A DNA stretch of 64,000 nt from Rhabditophanes sp. KR3021 (lineage: Eukaryota > Nematoda > Chromadorea > Rhabditida > Alloionematidae), in contig CAUJLY010000003.1 of assembly GCA_963281155.1 (NCBI GenBank), positions 2,170,001 to 2,234,000 on the forward strand. Reading direction: 5' to 3'. A program made the translations under genes and the position numbers. Shown here one piece after another: positions 33,187-40,633 of this stretch (position 1 is the stretch's first letter; each line of letters begins with the position of its first letter). Below the pieces are notes generated by a model. That model did no database searches. It was given only the letters and a program-made list of their open reading frames with translations, and had not been told where the DNA came from.

Positions 33187-36100
33187 ATGTCTTCAGCTGG
33201 AAAAATTAAAAGGAAAACTTCTATTCACTCGAATATCGCAGGTAACTAAAATAGGATTATCTTTCTATATAAACATTCTTCAATTTATGTATAACTCCCT
33301 TTAGGCCTTTACGACCTCGAAAAAACAATTGGAAAAGGCCATTTCGCAGTTGTCAAACTAGCACGCCATGTTTTCACCGGAGAAAGAGTAGCCATTAAAA
33401 TAATAGACAAGACCAAATTGGATCCTGTCTCAACTAATCACATCATGCAAGAAGTTCGTTGTATGAAGTTAGTCCAGCATCCGAATATCGTTAGATTGTA
33501 TGAAGTTATAGATACACAAACAAAGTTGTTCCTCATCTTAGAATTAGGAGATTACGACATGTTTGATTATGTTTGTTTTTCCTAGTCTTAACTAATACCG
33601 ATTTTATTTTAATTTTAGGTAAGTAAAGGGCGATCAAAAACAATTGTACAAAATAAGTGTTGCTGAATATCAAAAGCATTTATTAAAAGGGAGACAAAAA
33701 ATATTAAATTGGCGGAATATTATTCAGAAGTATCTTTTAAAGAAAAATAGATTTGTCTATGACCATCTCAGAGGTTCTTCTAATAGTTTCTGGGTGTTTC
33801 TTAATCATAACATCATTGGATTGTCCCGATGCATCAATGTTCATCAAAACATTTTGATGGTCCATAGTGATAGTGTATTCAAATGCTAAACCTTCATGTG
33901 CAGTCAACTCGTCACAATAGAAGAAACGATTTGTCTAAAATATCCATAATTCTTGTTTCTTTATCATTCAAAGGAATGAATCTCCTAGAATGAAGTCTGG
34001 TGGCTAAAATGTGATCAAGAAGTCTAGTTATAACGTTGCCAGATACACCATCATAGAAGGTTCCATTCTTGTATTCACTAAAAGAAACTGAACCACCATC
34101 CACACCAGCAGGCAGATCAGCTAAGACGTAGATTGATTGGTTTCGTTTGGCTGCTTTGCGAGACTTAGTCTTCTTCAATTCACCATCATCTTTTCCAATG
34201 ATTTAACATCAGCCAACTGCCTTTCTTTTTTAAAAGTCTCATCGATTTCAGCTTCTAACTTGGCACAAACTCTTTTCATAAAATGCTTTGTAAACTTTCC
34301 TAGTGAGTAGATCATTTCAATGAAATCATCTTGTGCTAACAACTCAGCAAACGCGGTTTTCTTTCTTGTCATCGGACCAATATTGACCACAGCCAGACTA
34401 ACTTATTTGATTAATTAAACTTACAGCTTCTTCCCAGAATCTTTACCAATGAAGTGCTTGTCTTTCCCAGATAGCTCGCCATTCAACTTGGCAGCAGCTA
34501 TTCTTGACTCTCTGCATGTTTTTTTAAGCCAATTAGTAGATGAATAGCAACCACGATTGCAATATGAAACCATAATGTTTTCAAACTTCCGAAGACCCGT
34601 ATATTGTTGTTTTTTCCTGATATTTATTGTTAGTAAAGGATCGTATACTATTTTCAAAGAAAGTAGCACTGTAAAAAGTAAACCGACATCATATTTCTCA
34701 ATTCTGATAATCTATTGCATCCCCATCTTCATAACTTTCAATTATTCTAACCGCATTTTCCTTCAAGTCATCCTTCAAGTCCTCTACTAACAATATATAC
34801 CCTATTTGTAAAGTTATTTCAGTCTCATCTACCTCCATTGGCTCCTCATTGAACGGCAAACCAGTGTTTTCATTTGTTGAAACATGTTGCAATGCTTGAC
34901 TCAATGCTTCTACCACTGCAAACTTGATTATAATGGCTGATACTTGATTACTTACCTTCTGCACTGACATCTTCTCTTATTGTTTCACTTCTTCTTAACG
35001 GAGCACTTGCATAAGCGTTTCTGATTTTGTGAAGACGTTCTTGGCTTCCGCTATTTTCTAATTGTGGTTTCATAATCAAAATATTAACTCAAATGAGATA
35101 TAAAACACTTTGATAAGTGAATAAATCTGAATGTTAAGCAAAAACGCTTTACCTTTTTGGTCTTTCAAAAGATAATTAGGTACAAATTTTAAATTATTGA
35201 ATATGATTCCGTAACATTAATCAACGATTATTTAAGATCATGAAGAATCCCGAAAAAGGTTGCAATGAAAAAGCTGCTCAGCATTACTTTTCCCAAATTA
35301 TCAAAGCAATCGATTATTGCCATGCATTGCACGTCGTCCATCGGGATTTGAAACCTGAGAATGTAGTGTTCTTCGAGAAACTAGGCATGGCTAAATTAAC
35401 AGATTTTGGATTTTCGAACTTATACATACCAGGTATTTTTTATTAAAATCAAGAATACTAAAATATATAAAAAGACAAAAATTAAATGATGTGACGTTAG
35501 AAGATAAAGTTAAAAAGCTTGTTTAAGGCCAATTCGCTCGACAATATTAGGATATTCTAAGTACATTACATGATTTGATTGGCCAGGCCCTGATAGAGAT
35601 GTCATAACAAGCATTTTTTATGTTGTAATCTCCATCATTTACATCTGTTTTTTCCATGTCTTTTATCAACGAAAAATTAAAGCGACTCCCCAGTATCAAA
35701 TCACTCATAAACTTTATTATAACTCATTATTTGTGAATTAATCGAATTTCTATGATTAGGAGAACAATTAAAAACATCATGTGGTTCATTAGCTTACTCT
35801 GCACCTGAAATCTTATTAGGTGATGCATATGATGCGCCCAAAGTTGATATCTGGAGTCTAGGAGTTCTGTTGTACATGTTGCTTTGCGGGAGATTGCCAT
35901 TCCAAGAAACAAACGAAAGTGAAACACTAACTAAAATTCTCGATTGTAAATACACAATTCCTGACAATGTCTCCAACGATGCCAAGTACCTTATCTCAAG
36001 GATGCTGGTTAGAAATCCAAAAGAACGTGCATGTTTGAGTGAAATTATCGAACATTCATGGGTGATTCGCGGAGATAAAGGTCATGCTGAGGCATTGCCT

Positions 36101-39100
36101 TTAATTGTAAGAGAACATTTGCCCGACAGCGCTCACAACACAATAATTGAGCAAATGATCATTGGAGGTACGTTCAATTCGCTAAGTATGTATAATTAAT
36201 TTAATTGAAATAGGAATAGGTAAAGAAGAAGAAATTTTGAATGCTCTAGAGTGGGATGAGTACAATTATATTTCAGCAACCTATTATTTATTGGCTGAAC
36301 GTGTGTTGTCTTCGATTAGGGAAGAGCAGGCGGCTCGTTTACTTGTTGATAATAATCTGCTTGGTTCAGAGCAGGATGAGAAGGAATCTCCGACGGATTC
36401 AGATAATAAACCTATTATGTTGACCGTTCGGAGTAGATCTAATTCTTTTAGAGGAACCAGAAGACAATGTAGTATTTTAAAAGAAGAAAGTGAGGAGGAA
36501 TTAAGCACTTATCTGAGGAGCTCATCCCGACAATCCAGCAGGTTTTTGTTTTCCCCTTCATACCCCAATTAATTTTATTTTACTTTTAGGTAATTTTTAA
36601 AGCAAAGAGTTTATTAAAAAAATGAGGCAGATATTAACAGTTGTCATGATATCATTTAATACTATTAATTAGATTGTCATACATGTTACTGAGGACAATA
36701 TCTGAGATTCTAGTTACAATAGTGGCATGTTTCTTAAACATTGCACCATCATTAGACTGACCCGATGATTCAGTGTTTGTCAATAGAAAATTAGCCTTAT
36801 AAATTGATCAAAAGCTAAAGTCTTAGCATCCAAATGAAAAGGTGTGTCAAGCAAGACATAAACACTTTGTTCACCCAATGTAGTACTGCATCTTTCAGTT
36901 CATTGTTAAGCTGTTGCCACAACTCAACATTAGACAAATTAATTTTCTCCCTAAAAATCTTGGTAATTTCGCTTTCCAACTCGGCGCATTCTCTTTTCTT
37001 CAAATGATATGATAAAAGGTTGAAATCATTGAAGGTCCTGGGGCAGCTTTCACATTTGTACTTGAGTCCTTTGACAATAATAGATTCAATATTTGGATTG
37101 GCAATAGGTTGCATGTTCATCCAACAGACACTGATAAGGGTAATTTCCTAACAATTTCAGAGCGTTAGGATAGAAAGCTTTACAAACTATTCAAATTTAT
37201 ATTTTGATAAACACATAAAATTGAATTGTCATGGGTGACATAAATTGACTACAAAATATTCTACATAAAAATAGTTAAAATAAAAAATAATTACGTTTAC
37301 TTACGCTTTTAAGCAGGTTAGTAAGCGATTTAAAATTCAGTTTATGTGTTAATATACCTAAATTTATTTGTAAGAACAAAATATTTAAATGTAATTGCTT
37401 AGGTTCTACAATCCGCCATCTCATCAGTGTGACAACAGACTCGGCATACTGTCAAAAAAGTCTTCCGTCGACGCTTCTTCTCCACCAATTGTGCATAGTC
37501 CCTTGATATCTCCAGCAGGCCTAGCCTTAAAGTCGCCACTTCCTTTATCTGTATTTTCATTCAGTAGTGAAGACCACCTTTCCCCGATAACAGAACAGGA
37601 ACCTTGCCAAGATGGAAATTACTTTTGTTATCGTGATAGTTTACAAGTTCCCTCCGCTGAAAGAGCCCTTTCTTCCGAACACTTGATCGAAGAAATGGAT
37701 GTAGTGATATATGAAATTCTTTCGGAGGACTCCACTACAAGTTCTGAGGCTAACCACTACCTGGAGACAGCTTCCGCCAGGAAAGCCGAAAAGTTGGCAA
37801 GAACAGCTTCTGCTCCAATGACGCGGCCTCGTTACGTCCCTCGTCCCGGTTCCTTTAATGTACCTGCTGTTCCACCGCCAAAATCACGCAGAAGACAACT
37901 GATTCGAAGGTTCTTGCATGATCCGTCTTTTTATTATTTTACTCATCCCCTGCTTGAACACCCAAAAACATTTTTTAATATATTAATTTTTATCTCCACT
38001 AGTAACAAAACAAATTAACAAATCGTTCCTTTTTAATCTAATTAATTCAACTTTCTTATAGAAATTCATCGCCATCTGTATCAATGCTAGGATTATCTGG
38101 AATAGCATCTTCTAAAGACAGAGTTTCACCTCAAGCAATTCAAGAATTACTGGAATTAACTCGAATTTCAAGTAGGATGGGGAGAGCTGCTTCTCCAGAT
38201 TCCCGAATTAGTTCAAGATCTCCCTCCCCACCATCTTTGACATCTTCATTTAATTCTCTAATGAATACAATGCATATTTCAGGTACGGTTTTTAAATTTC
38301 TTTAGAAAAGCTAAAGCTATTAAGACAAAAAATTTATCAAGTAGAAAAAGTTATACAAAGGCAATAAGTTAGTCCATCATTGCAAGGTTGTACTTAATTT
38401 TTTCATCCAGGTTGCCATAAAAAATCGTTTTTCTTAAATTCGAATCCCCATAAAGCTTTCACCTTAATGATGTAGTTGGACATGGTCCCTGGTACAACAC
38501 CAATAGCTTTATCCGCTTCCTTGATGGAGGAGTGTATTTGAACCACTCATCATTCAATCTCAATTGGAGAACTTTCTTACCAACACCACTGAGATTGTTC
38601 TCGCTGTAACTAGCCCATCTCAGGTTTTCGACGCAATTGTCATTTCTGCGGCGGTTCTTGTGGTCAACACATGGCTTTCCTTCAGTATTTGGGATGAAGG
38701 CAGTTGCAACTGATATCAATTCTTACTTTTTGTCCCCGTTTTGCAAGATGTAGAGTAGAAATGCGATATCCATCATTGCTTAAGCGTGAGCGCACGAAAG
38801 TATTGGTGATGGCATTCTTGAGTTTGCCATTGAAGAGATCGTGTAGTTTGTTCTTTTTTCATTCAAAATAACAGTTAACCACTTCTCGGAACTGTAGTCT
38901 GTGTCATCTTCCAAAGCAGTAAAGTTACGACCACCCACATCCGAATGCCTCCCATAAAGTCCCGTATCTTGAGAATGTTTGCTGTTTTCATCTGGAGTTG
39001 TGTATTCCAAATTTAGAACTCGATTATCGTGAATGTCTCCATTCATATGGTTTGCTTGATGCCTTGGTGTTGGAGGAACTCTGTGAAAAGCGACGGTGAC

Positions 39101-40633
39101 TTCTCTTGGATTAATCTTGAAGTATTAGTTGCTCCAGGCATGCCAACTCTAATATCAACAGTCCAGTAGTTTGTTCCATCTCTCACATGCGGCTTCACAA
39201 TATATTGGGTTTCGTCATTTCTGACAAGGGCAGCATCGGATACAGAATACCTTGGGTTGAATATGCTCTTGACCCATTCCATACCTTCAGAAATAGTGGG
39301 AAAGAGAAGTCTGTACTAGCAATTACTGAAGGCTTGCTTGGACCAGGGAAGGTTTCCTCAACGAGCTTTTCATAATTTCTCTTCAGCCAAATCGGCTTGT
39401 TGTTCTCATCCCCTCTTCCAGTGTTAGATCCACTTGCCCTCTTGTTACGGCAACTTTATCTTTAGCTCTAATTTTGCAAACCTCCTTGTGTTCCAACGCT
39501 TTATTAACGAAGAAATAAATGGGGTTCGGAAAATACATTAAATTTTATTTGATTCTTTAATAAATATAATGCATATTTTAGGTTCAGGTCGTGCATCTCC
39601 TAGCCAGATGGAAACATTTGTTAATAGGATTAAAAATACTTCAATTCCCGGATCAGGGATGCGGAAGCTTTCATCGTCGCCTCATTTATTGGGAATATGT
39701 GAAGAAAGTGAAGAAGCATTGGATTCAAATCCAAATAGCTTAAAAGCACCATATATGTTTGGACATTCATTTACTGGACATGGAAGGAATACAAGAAGTA
39801 GTAGTATGATTGGACATACTATTGGAGAATCTGCTCATCTCAAGAAAAGAGCGGCTGAAGCAAGGAATGATCGTAAATGCTCGCTTGATTCCACCAATTC
39901 AGGCCTTAATATGTACAATTCAACTAAATTGACAAGGCAGCGGGCAGCAATTGGCTTACAAGATTTAAATAAAAGATTCGAAAGTCAGCACAAAATTATG
40001 ATCTCAAAAACTAGAAGATCTATGAGTTGTTCATCCAGTGAAACTTCTGAAGACGATTCTCAGGAAAGGAAATTGAGTCTATTGAATCAAAAGTATTGCC
40101 AAAAGAAGGATGATGATTTTTATGACGATGAAGACCCTTCATGTACTGGTAATGGAACAAAGCAAATAGAGTCGAGCAAATGCACACCTCTCAATACTGT
40201 TACCAATACAACGAATAATAACACAGAAACAAAAGTTGTTGAAAATGGAAGCAGTGGCACAGTTCGCAAACACTCAACTTTAGAACGGGTTACCTCATTA
40301 CAGCCAATAGATGAAATGTTTTTTGAATTTTCCGAAGCAGTGCGCAAACCATCTTCCTCTTCGATGATGTTTGTTAGATCTCAGATCGCTGAAAAAGTGA
40401 TTTGTGATTTAAGTAAAAGCAATAGCACGAGGAGTGTCCTAAAAGTACTTAGAAGGACAGAATCGTTAACGAACATATTCAGCCAAGAAGATGCTCAATC
40501 TGCTTCGTGTTCAATCGAATCTCTACATTCATTTGATTCCGGATGCCTTTCCGAGTCTGAAATCCTCAATTCCGATTCTAAAAAGTCGTTAACTGGCCTT
40601 ACAACAGACAATCAAATAGTTCACATTTATTGA
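33187..40633 (+). CDS. SNRK: SNF-related serine/threonine kinase SNRK
   Basis: Eight exons keep frame: 33187-33241, 33305-33570, 35237-35432, 35760-36167, 36214-36541, 37403-37909, 38062-38282 and 39582-40633, giving about 1010 residues. SNRK is an AMPK-related kinase activated by LKB1. Kinase features: IGKGHFAVV (G-loop), VAIKIID (Lys), [23 protein letters not shown], and [14 protein letters not shown] containing the Thr that LKB1 phosphorylates. [20 protein letters not shown] is nearly identical to vertebrate SNRK. A UBA-like region follows the kinase ([28 protein letters not shown]). The long Ser-rich tail has [13 protein letters not shown], like the vertebrate SSSSETSDDDSESR. Introns 2, 3, 5 and 7 (1666, 327, 861 and 1299 nt) are far longer than introns 1, 4 and 6 (63, 46 and 152 nt), and each holds an antisense nuclease relic. 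Confidence 0.93.
33611..33626 (+). promoter_or_regulatory. Fused 3'/5' splice site (AG|GTAAGT) in SNRK intron 2
   Basis: AATTTTAG|GTAAGTAA: an acceptor exactly 48 nt after the exon-2 donor is followed directly by a strong donor. A branch-point-like CTTAACTAA lies ~27 nt upstream (about 33587-33595). This is a zero-length-exon (recursive splice site) arrangement, and element 1 begins at the GTAAGT. Confidence 0.55.
33619..35236 (-). mobile_element. Intronic antisense element 1: zinc-finger/GIY-YIG (LEM-3/ANKLE1-type) nuclease relic
   Basis: Occupies SNRK intron 2; coding frames run on the minus strand from ~34970 to the stop at 33737. In order: an acidic N-terminus; a Cys-rich segment ([18 protein letters not shown]); a helical segment [15 protein letters not shown]; a basic linker; then a GIY-YIG core. 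The core has [29 protein letters not shown] (second Tyr, Gly and conserved Arg), [24 protein letters not shown] (catalytic-type Glu) and [12 protein letters not shown] (conserved Asn). This order matches the LEM-3/ANKLE1/COG3680 clade. At least two frame changes (about 34180 and 33910) break it. The proposed left end is the GTAAGT at 33619, directly after a TTTTAG; the right end abuts exon 3. Confidence 0.7.
35511..35614 (-). mobile_element. Intronic antisense element 3: C-terminal relic of the GIY-YIG element
   Basis: In SNRK intron 3 (327 nt) the minus strand reads [29 protein letters not shown] then stop. It aligns with the C-termini of element 1 ([25 protein letters not shown]) and element 2 ([25 protein letters not shown]). 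Shared residues are S-G-x-G-Q-S-N or S-G-Q-S-N-D, an E/KKH position, the P/A-x-I pair and a final R-x-x. Only this tail is left. Confidence 0.6.
36582..36597 (+). promoter_or_regulatory. Fused 3'/5' splice site (AG|GTAATT) in SNRK intron 5
   Basis: ACTTTTAG|GTAATTTT lies exactly 48 nt after the exon-5 donor, the same spacing as the fused site in intron 2. The two introns hold related elements, so the coincidence supports a common insertion history. Confidence 0.5.
36590..37402 (-). mobile_element. Intronic antisense element 2: internally deleted zinc-finger/GIY-YIG relic
   Basis: Occupies SNRK intron 5; coding part 36652-37120 (minus). It starts with a C2H2-like finger ([20 protein letters not shown]) and [12 protein letters not shown], clearly homologous to [11 protein letters not shown] of element 1. 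The first GIY-YIG strand is [14 protein letters not shown]. It then passes straight into KTLAFDQFI and [16 protein letters not shown], the end of the domain. The central part with the second Tyr, Gly and Arg is absent. There is one frame change near 36885 and a stop near 36795. The left boundary follows a 48-nt intron-like unit ending TTTTAG (36589). Confidence 0.68.
38247..38286 (+). repeat. Left copy of 40-bp direct repeat flanking SNRK intron 7
   Basis: Spans the end of exon 7 and the donor. It matches 39546-39585 at 33 of 40 positions without gaps; six of the seven differences are transitions. The donor GT of intron 7 lies in this copy. Confidence 0.75.
38283..39581 (-). mobile_element. 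Intronic antisense element 4: double NUMOD4-HNH_3 endonuclease relic
   Basis: Occupies SNRK intron 7; coding frames run from about 39430 to 38459 (minus). First unit: NUMOD4-like [20 protein letters not shown], then HNH_3-like [19 protein letters not shown] with [18 protein letters not shown]. Second unit: [17 protein letters not shown] strand, then [20 protein letters not shown] and [17 protein letters not shown], a textbook HNH_3 with its paired His/Asn. The frame changes at about 39298, 39100 and 38705, so the protein is dead. NUMOD4-HNH_3 proteins are typical free-standing or intron-encoded endonucleases of phages, plastids and large viruses, and are unusual inside an animal spliceosomal intron. 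The intron is flanked by a 40-bp direct repeat. Confidence 0.72.
39546..39585 (+). repeat. Right copy of 40-bp direct repeat flanking SNRK intron 7
   Basis: Intron end plus first bases of exon 8. It contains the acceptor TTTTAG followed by GT, the same place where the left copy has TTTCAG followed by the donor GT. Confidence 0.75.

Follow-up and report, generated by a model that had tools for sequence, protein, structure and literature searches.

Introns of a nematode SNRK gene that appear to be mobile elements carrying antisense nuclease genes

Mobile introns and intron-associated nucleases

The origin of new spliceosomal introns is a long-standing question, and introners are one described source. 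In the available part of the survey that describes them, introners are recognized as similar introns in many unrelated genes, with similarity that ends at the splice sites and with target duplications, the donor or the acceptor being recruited from the duplication or from the element (PMC9860276). They are presented there as having evolved from non-autonomous elements, mostly DNA transposons, and earlier families are cited with duplications of 3-9 bp (PMC9860276, Gozashti et al. 2022); among animals and land plants, the same part reports introners in only two groups, both of them animals (PMC9860276). Mirusvirus shintrons, as far as the accessible text of their description goes, are spliceosomal homing introns that carry HNH or GIY-YIG genes and show no group I/II signature; they reside mostly in virion morphogenesis genes and are explained by homing into intron-free copies (PMC12768974). 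The stwintrons of fungi, again according to the accessible part of the source, are sequence-similar compound introns found at new positions (PMC12403724).

Our own material is an SNRK gene of Rhabditophanes sp. KR3021 and the window around it, that is, the whole stretch of 64 kb that was analysed, together with related copies in the rest of the genome; on its contig (C3) the window covers 2170001-2234000. Several further systems provide points of comparison: Penelope-like elements are animal mobile elements with a GIY-YIG endonuclease, LEM-3 and ANKLE1 are cellular nucleases acting on DNA bridges, stwintrons are spliced in two steps, zero-length recursive splice sites have been described in flies, and common DNA transposons produce target duplications of fixed length.

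Nuclease remains in the SNRK introns

The eight exons of SNRK, when spliced together, give an open frame of 1010 aa with its ATG at 33187, the first 352 aa of which align to human SNRK (PDB 5yks) with E=1.9e-149. In this alignment the intron-3 junction is gap-free, and the intron-2 junction has one-residue gaps flanking it on both sides but none at the junction itself. An earlier note on this DNA had divided the gene by seven introns, all of which we recover with exactly the same coordinates and lengths:

33242-33304: SNRK intron 1, 63 nt
33571..35236, minus strand: SNRK intron 2, 1666 nt, one GIY-YIG element end to end, antisense to SNRK
35433..35759, minus strand: SNRK intron 3, 327 nt, with a short C-terminal GIY-YIG remnant at 35513-35617
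36168-36213: SNRK intron 4, 46 nt
36542..37402, minus strand: SNRK intron 5, 861 nt, a decayed GIY-YIG element of the intron-2 family
37910-38061: SNRK intron 6, 152 nt
38283..39581, minus strand: SNRK intron 7, 1299 nt, a NUMOD4/HNH_3 element, antisense to SNRK

The same note had claimed minus-strand remains of GIY-YIG proteins in introns 2, 3 and 5, which a profile search supports and which are LEM-3-like, and of a NUMOD4-HNH protein in intron 7, which Pfam and tblastn support; two unrelated nuclease classes, both antisense, do lie within spliceosomal introns of an animal gene. The short introns 1, 4 and 6 are without nuclease remains. The individual remnants in introns 2, 5 and 7 are as follows:

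33737..33934, minus strand: nuclease remnant in intron 2, C-terminal part (LEM-3-like GIY-YIG), profile E=1.1e-25
33912..34202, minus strand: nuclease remnant in intron 2, GIY-YIG catalytic part, profile E=3.7e-35, at least 141 genome matches
34175..34402, minus strand: nuclease remnant in intron 2, upstream (zinc-finger-side) part, profile E=8.2e-10
36652-36807, 36783-36899 and 36815-37147, minus strand: GIY-YIG remnants in intron 5, profile E down to 3.6e-14, tblastn 1.9e-15
38459..38722, minus strand: HNH_3 remnant in intron 7, C-terminal copy, PF13392 at 25.5 bits (cut-off 24.8)
38780..39124, minus strand: HNH_3 remnant in intron 7, N-terminal copy, PF13392 at 18.5 bits, below the cut-off
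39043..39315, minus strand: NUMOD4 remnant in intron 7, PF07463 at 17.7 bits, below the cut-off of 23.4

The GIY-YIG profile was built from four copies elsewhere in the genome, and its best E-values against minus-strand ORFs were 3.7e-35 for intron 2, 3.6e-14 for intron 5 and 7.7e-5 for intron 3. With a limit of E<=0.01 it matched 53 ORFs in the window and 20 loci, a count that includes the four seeds, and none in the reversed sequences. The intron-3 remnant is also similar to the copy in locus L022 (51% over 35 aa, E=5.7e-6), and intron 7 matches a 466-aa NUMOD4-HNH ORF of the same genome with a tblastn E-value of 1.8e-36. Of the published models that the earlier note had proposed for a check, PF13392 is above its cut-off in intron 7 and PF07463 below, and no Pfam GIY-YIG model matched in the window pieces. 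Among copies elsewhere, the LEM-3_GIY-YIG model PF22945 reaches 28.2 bits in the better-preserved copy L014 (cut-off 27), stays below the cut-off in L018 (20.0) and is absent in L011. In line with an absence of group I or II intron structure, no Rfam model matched at its gathering score in 14 loci, the one match in the SNRK region having E=0.88, far below its gathering score, and no relatives were found in IMG/VR. A search for the nematode SL1 leader gave 0 matches. The remnants in the window are decayed, and at the thresholds used no GIY or HNH remains were found in it outside the SNRK introns. Four nuclease-element introns thus sit in a single gene (33187-39581), with none found in the rest of the 64 kb.

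Copies across the genome, their hosts and their junctions

The GIY piece of intron 2 has at least 141 matches in the 44.8-Mb genome and the HNH part of intron 7 at least 36 (matches, not copies), and matches to both families occur on all six contigs. The impression that the system is peculiar to SNRK does not hold, given matches on six contigs and copies in unrelated genes; similar introns are present in several unrelated genes of one genome. When the whole of intron 2 was used as query (at least 86 matches, 40 of 100 candidates scored), the matches could be grouped into at least 40 copies, the window copy included. Among the matches listed, 31 of these 40 reach query base 1620 or beyond, 23 start at base 20 or before, and 18 do both; in the 17 non-window copies with both ends, the alignment begins between query bases 2 and 16 and runs to a point between bases 1648 and 1665 of 1666. 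Similarity stops at the splice sites without extending into the exons, and because the alignments of copies stop only a few bases short of either intron end, intron 2 appears to be the element itself.

Many copies are broken by stops, and no intact member of the intron-2 family was seen among the copies read. Internal deletions with both ends kept, as judged by comparison to intron 2, are common; the N-terminal coding pieces of the nuclease gene still read as intron-separated, its intron seemingly being kept, and no poly(A) tail was seen by eye at copy ends. A processed retrocopy of the nuclease mRNA was rejected in view of this apparently kept intron and because no poly(A) was visible, and systematic 5' truncation, an idea that came from profile hits confined to the C-terminal part, was dropped since both ends are present in 18 of 40 copies. 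No match to a reverse transcriptase model at E<=0.1 was obtained with five pieces from the N-terminal side of four copies, which do not cover every residue. Some details of individual copies may be added: two near-identical structures lie about 15 kb apart at C2:3490462-3491609 (minus strand) and C2:3506371-3507514 (plus strand), perhaps an inverted segmental duplication with the insertion; the dynein locus L014 contains three GIY pieces; and some GIY copies (e.g., L045, L046) have a short inverted motif at their ends, which in host sense reads CGTT towards the 5' side and AACG towards the 3' side.

Host genes with a copy on the opposite strand include those for Ras, proteasome beta-1, dynein, a nuclear receptor and an ABC transporter. 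Exons adjoining copies received the Pfam names dynein AAA_6, PP2C, Ras, proteasome, I-set, myosin tail, sulfate permease, HSP70, acyltransferase, papain-type protease, helicase, CLC channel and PDZ; a SET exon next to the GIY piece in L022 stays below its Pfam cut-off (17.1 of 22.4), and an SAHH-like and a TBC protein host, guessed by eye, were dropped after giving no Pfam match. With host junctions chosen by us so that the frame is kept, nine of ten copies fetched at both ends have a host frame that stays open for 17-46 aa upstream and 31-46 aa downstream of the junction; in the remaining one (C4:5276) only 7 codons follow. Six of the ten were scanned with Pfam: three have a domain that extends across the junction, namely zf-C4 (34.7 bits, the host being a nuclear receptor) and ABC_tran (45.8) above the cut-off and Pkinase (18.5) below it, and no convincing name was obtained for the hosts at C2:4666, C5:1649 and C1:5661. 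Compared with solved proteins, the joined hosts are gap-free through the junction for proteasome beta-1 (L025, GIY), Ras (L028, GIY) and E2 RAD6 (L035, HNH element); for Ras, the best-scoring chain contains a duplication and aligns piecewise, most of the other listed chains being aligned as single stretches. Removal of the element restores the host reading frame in these nine of ten copies and, as judged against solved proteins, in SNRK, Ras, E2 and the proteasome subunit.

The orientation of the copies is consistent. Twenty GIY loci were picked by match score and frame length, blind to context, and both strands were examined with a coding score trained on the long ORFs of the same 20 loci; opposite-strand coding ORFs lie about 200 bp or less from at least one end in all 20. 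Six more GIY fragments (L011, two in L014, L016, L022, L024), judged from maps alone, are likewise opposite to the neighbouring coding ORFs, and in the ten copies fetched at both ends the host joins on the strand opposite the nuclease, this strand alone having been translated. HNH elements are antisense in seven of eight fetched loci and in intron 7, the exception (L029) not being placed in any intron.

Comparison of exon end and intron end at 24 junctions (21 GIY, 3 HNH), all with anchors chosen by us after inspecting the frames, gave a mean in-register identity of 8.25/17, against 6.76/17 for 552 mispaired combinations, and 2 of 20000 permutations were as high as observed. Loci L014, L017, L018, L020 and L024, where the downstream junction is not fixed, were left out of this set. 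Target-site duplication is evident over the 24 junctions as a group, with single copies partly lacking a visible duplication; clear cases are a minority, and many junctions share just AG or AGGT. The clearest GIY examples are those at the ABC transporter (C1:2374), TATCTGAATTTCCT(C/T)AG with 16/17 bp, at L012, CGAA(T/C)TCCACCAG with 12/13, and at C4:5276, GATTTTGCAAA(G/A)GTT with 14/15, one base out of register. Within SNRK, intron 5 has AGGTT at both ends, intron 2 has no duplication and intron 3 little beyond AG, whereas intron 7 has a long one:

38245..38282, plus strand: target-site duplication of intron 7, exonic copy, 38 bp long and 84% identical to 39544-39581, E=1.3e-4
39544..39581, plus strand: target-site duplication of intron 7, intronic copy, which supplies the acceptor AG

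Duplication length ranges from about 4 to 17 bp for GIY elements and is 38 bp for the HNH element in intron 7, a variability that sets them apart from common DNA transposons, whose duplications have a constant length.

GIY copies share a module at the host 5' side, a mini-intron of 39-53 nt (77 in one copy) ending in AG|GTAAGT. An outer donor comes first, then CTTAACTAATATTAAT or a similar sequence, then a T-rich stretch and TTTTAG, with GTAAGT or a close variant directly behind. Of 25 copies given to the parser 23 were parsed, those out being L020 (anchor not found) and L018 (inner site GTAAAT); the outer donor is variable (GT in 19 of 23, GC in 4 of 23), and the inner donor is near-consensus (GTAAGT). 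A strict form of the pattern occurs at 7 places, with 0 in the backward control, and is too strict for counting copies. The inside of the module is alike in unrelated host genes, for which reason an old host intron was rejected as its origin. HNH junctions examined are without the adaptor and have their donor at the element end. The corresponding features in SNRK are:

33571..33618, plus strand: mini-intron of intron 2, 48 nt, outer donor GTTTGT, branch-like CTTAACTAAT, acceptor ATTTTAG
33619..33628, plus strand: inner donor GTAAGTAAAG of intron 2, directly after the mini-intron acceptor, a ratchet-like AG|GTAAGT
36542..36589, plus strand: mini-intron of intron 5, with the inner donor GTAATT next, at 36590

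A second type of GIY-YIG gene, here called GIY-B, has at least 151 matches (453 first-look candidates, of which 150 were scored) and is apparently a larger family than the GIY family of SNRK. Its copies in L011, L018 and L024 are antisense and adjoin host exons, and the copy in L011 has GGTAAATT(T/C)AC at both ends, the second occurrence being coding exon; two more matches, in L009 and L015, were not placed. Judging from these antisense copies and the end duplication in L011, the nuclease families that seem to follow this pattern in the genome number at least three.

Longer nuclease frames were also noted. The 466-aa frame at L029:1130-2527 (contig C5, about 533.1-534.5 kb) is without stops, contains HNH_3, NUMOD4, HNH_3 and a weak NUMOD1, adjoins an ORF that looks mariner-like by eye, and is possibly the source copy of the HNH family. 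Near it, on the same smallest contig, a 379-aa ORF at L059:1268-2404 (contig C5, about 516 kb) has a LEM-3-like GIY-YIG domain (37.2 bits) of more canonical sequence. At L061 (C3:1774000-1776400), a GIY-B copy with a C2H2-like piece adjoins an integrase-looking ORF, and a reverse transcriptase match lies in a 1026-aa open frame about 1 kb further, perhaps a young LTR retrotransposon beside an older GIY-B copy.

Origin of the introns and comparison with known systems

Taken from the DNA sequence, these observations suggest, with a probability that we put at roughly 0.7, that SNRK introns 2, 5, 7 and probably 3 are mobile elements that were inserted into exons and are spliced out by the spliceosome, i.e., introners that carry nuclease genes. 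Insertions with duplications would have made new introns, because the duplicated stretches are coding exon; the argument for intron gain is drawn here from duplicated exon sequence rather than from an orthologous site that lacks the insertion. We propose that the target exon receives a staggered cut from a GIY-YIG or HNH protein, that a variable stagger would yield duplications of about 4 to 38 bp, and that the copy may be pasted as DNA, via ectopic gap repair or a transposase-like step. Copying as DNA is favoured because of the internal deletions with kept ends, the seemingly kept intron of the nuclease gene and the lack of poly(A). Donor and acceptor would come in part from the duplicated target (G|GT, AG) and in part from the element. 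In GIY copies the mini-intron may be removed first, the inner donor then joining the far acceptor as at recursive splice sites, so that a strong inner donor could let weak outer donors work by two-step splicing. Surviving copies would be antisense because that strand alone reads as an intron, and a spliced-out copy would be tolerated and hard to delete cleanly. We infer that the nuclease drives insertion, since it is present in three different forms, and nuclease-coding elements have been, on this reading, a source of new introns in this genome.

The main competing scenario, which we regard as unlikely, has the introners moved by other machinery, either through reverse splicing of excised intron RNA or by the reverse transcriptase of other elements, with the nuclease serving allelic homing alone, as has been proposed for mirusvirus shintrons. 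It would fit the shared strand of the copies examined relative to their hosts, the many sites at AG|G proto-splice positions and the reverse transcriptases of the genome (at least 37 matches, some in long open frames), and a host-sense RNA would retain the intron of the antisense gene; yet reverse splicing predicts no target duplication, whereas duplicated exon sequence reaches 17 bp and, at intron 7, about 38 bp; the ends show no visible poly(A), and internal deletions with both ends kept resemble DNA elements. The earlier note had viewed the introns as landing sites, that is, pre-existing introns entered by ordinary transposons, as the residence of different nuclease families in introns and the short introns of the same gene without such remains (1, 4, 6) might suggest. 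This view did not survive the genome-wide comparison and has become quite improbable: element ends coincide with splice sites, the sequence immediately inside the donor is shared among unrelated hosts, and several copies are flanked by duplicated sequence that is coding exon, which contradicts it for those copies. Nested antisense host genes, i.e., an intron-resident nuclease family, or assembly chimeras are scarcely credible, for although LEM-3-type nucleases are normal animal proteins, the copies are contradictory to this in number and decay, many being broken by stops, spread over six contigs and flanked by host frames that join up.

Returning to introners that carry nuclease genes, a wider proposal, to which we give even odds, would be that of nuclease-driven mobile spliceosomal introns in an animal, in which an opposite-strand endonuclease opens exon sites, a universal splice adaptor permits recursive splicing almost anywhere, and three or more nuclease families (two GIY-YIG, one HNH) form a main engine of intron gain in the lineage. 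The animal introns described here hold genes for enzymes that may have spread them, and do so in recognizable copies with duplications and an adaptor. Both intron gain and recursive splice-site use thereby become directly testable, and mirusvirus shintrons are linked to intron gain in animals.

The remark of the earlier note that it knew of no such system in an animal housekeeping kinase agrees with our literature search, made largely without subscription papers and bioRxiv preprints, which found no nuclease-coding introner in an animal. Likeness to Penelope-like elements lies in the GIY-YIG endonuclease of an animal mobile element, but here no reverse transcriptase matched in the pieces searched and the domain is LEM-3-like. 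The domain is of the same LEM-3 type as in LEM-3 and ANKLE1 (L014), here in a decayed, repeated and intron-borne family. In stwintrons, going by the accessible part of their description, the inner intron interrupts the donor after its first base, whereas here the inner donor is intact and has a complete mini-intron in front of it. The nearest published systems, within the accessible parts of the two papers, are introners and mirusvirus shintrons. Like introners, the elements occupy unrelated host genes, end at the splice sites, have target duplications and recruit donor or acceptor from the duplication or the element; unlike the introners described in the available part of the survey, they carry antisense GIY-YIG or HNH genes, have duplications of about 4 to 38 bp, and possess an AG|GTAAGT adaptor. 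Like shintrons, as these are portrayed in the text at hand, they are spliceosomal introns that encode HNH or GIY-YIG proteins and are without group I/II structure, both features being found here. Residence in mirusvirus genes with target-gene specificity is not seen, the hosts being animal genes of many kinds, and it is this setting in an animal genome with many kinds of host gene, together with the antisense orientation and the target duplications that would denote ectopic spread, that sets them apart from shintrons.
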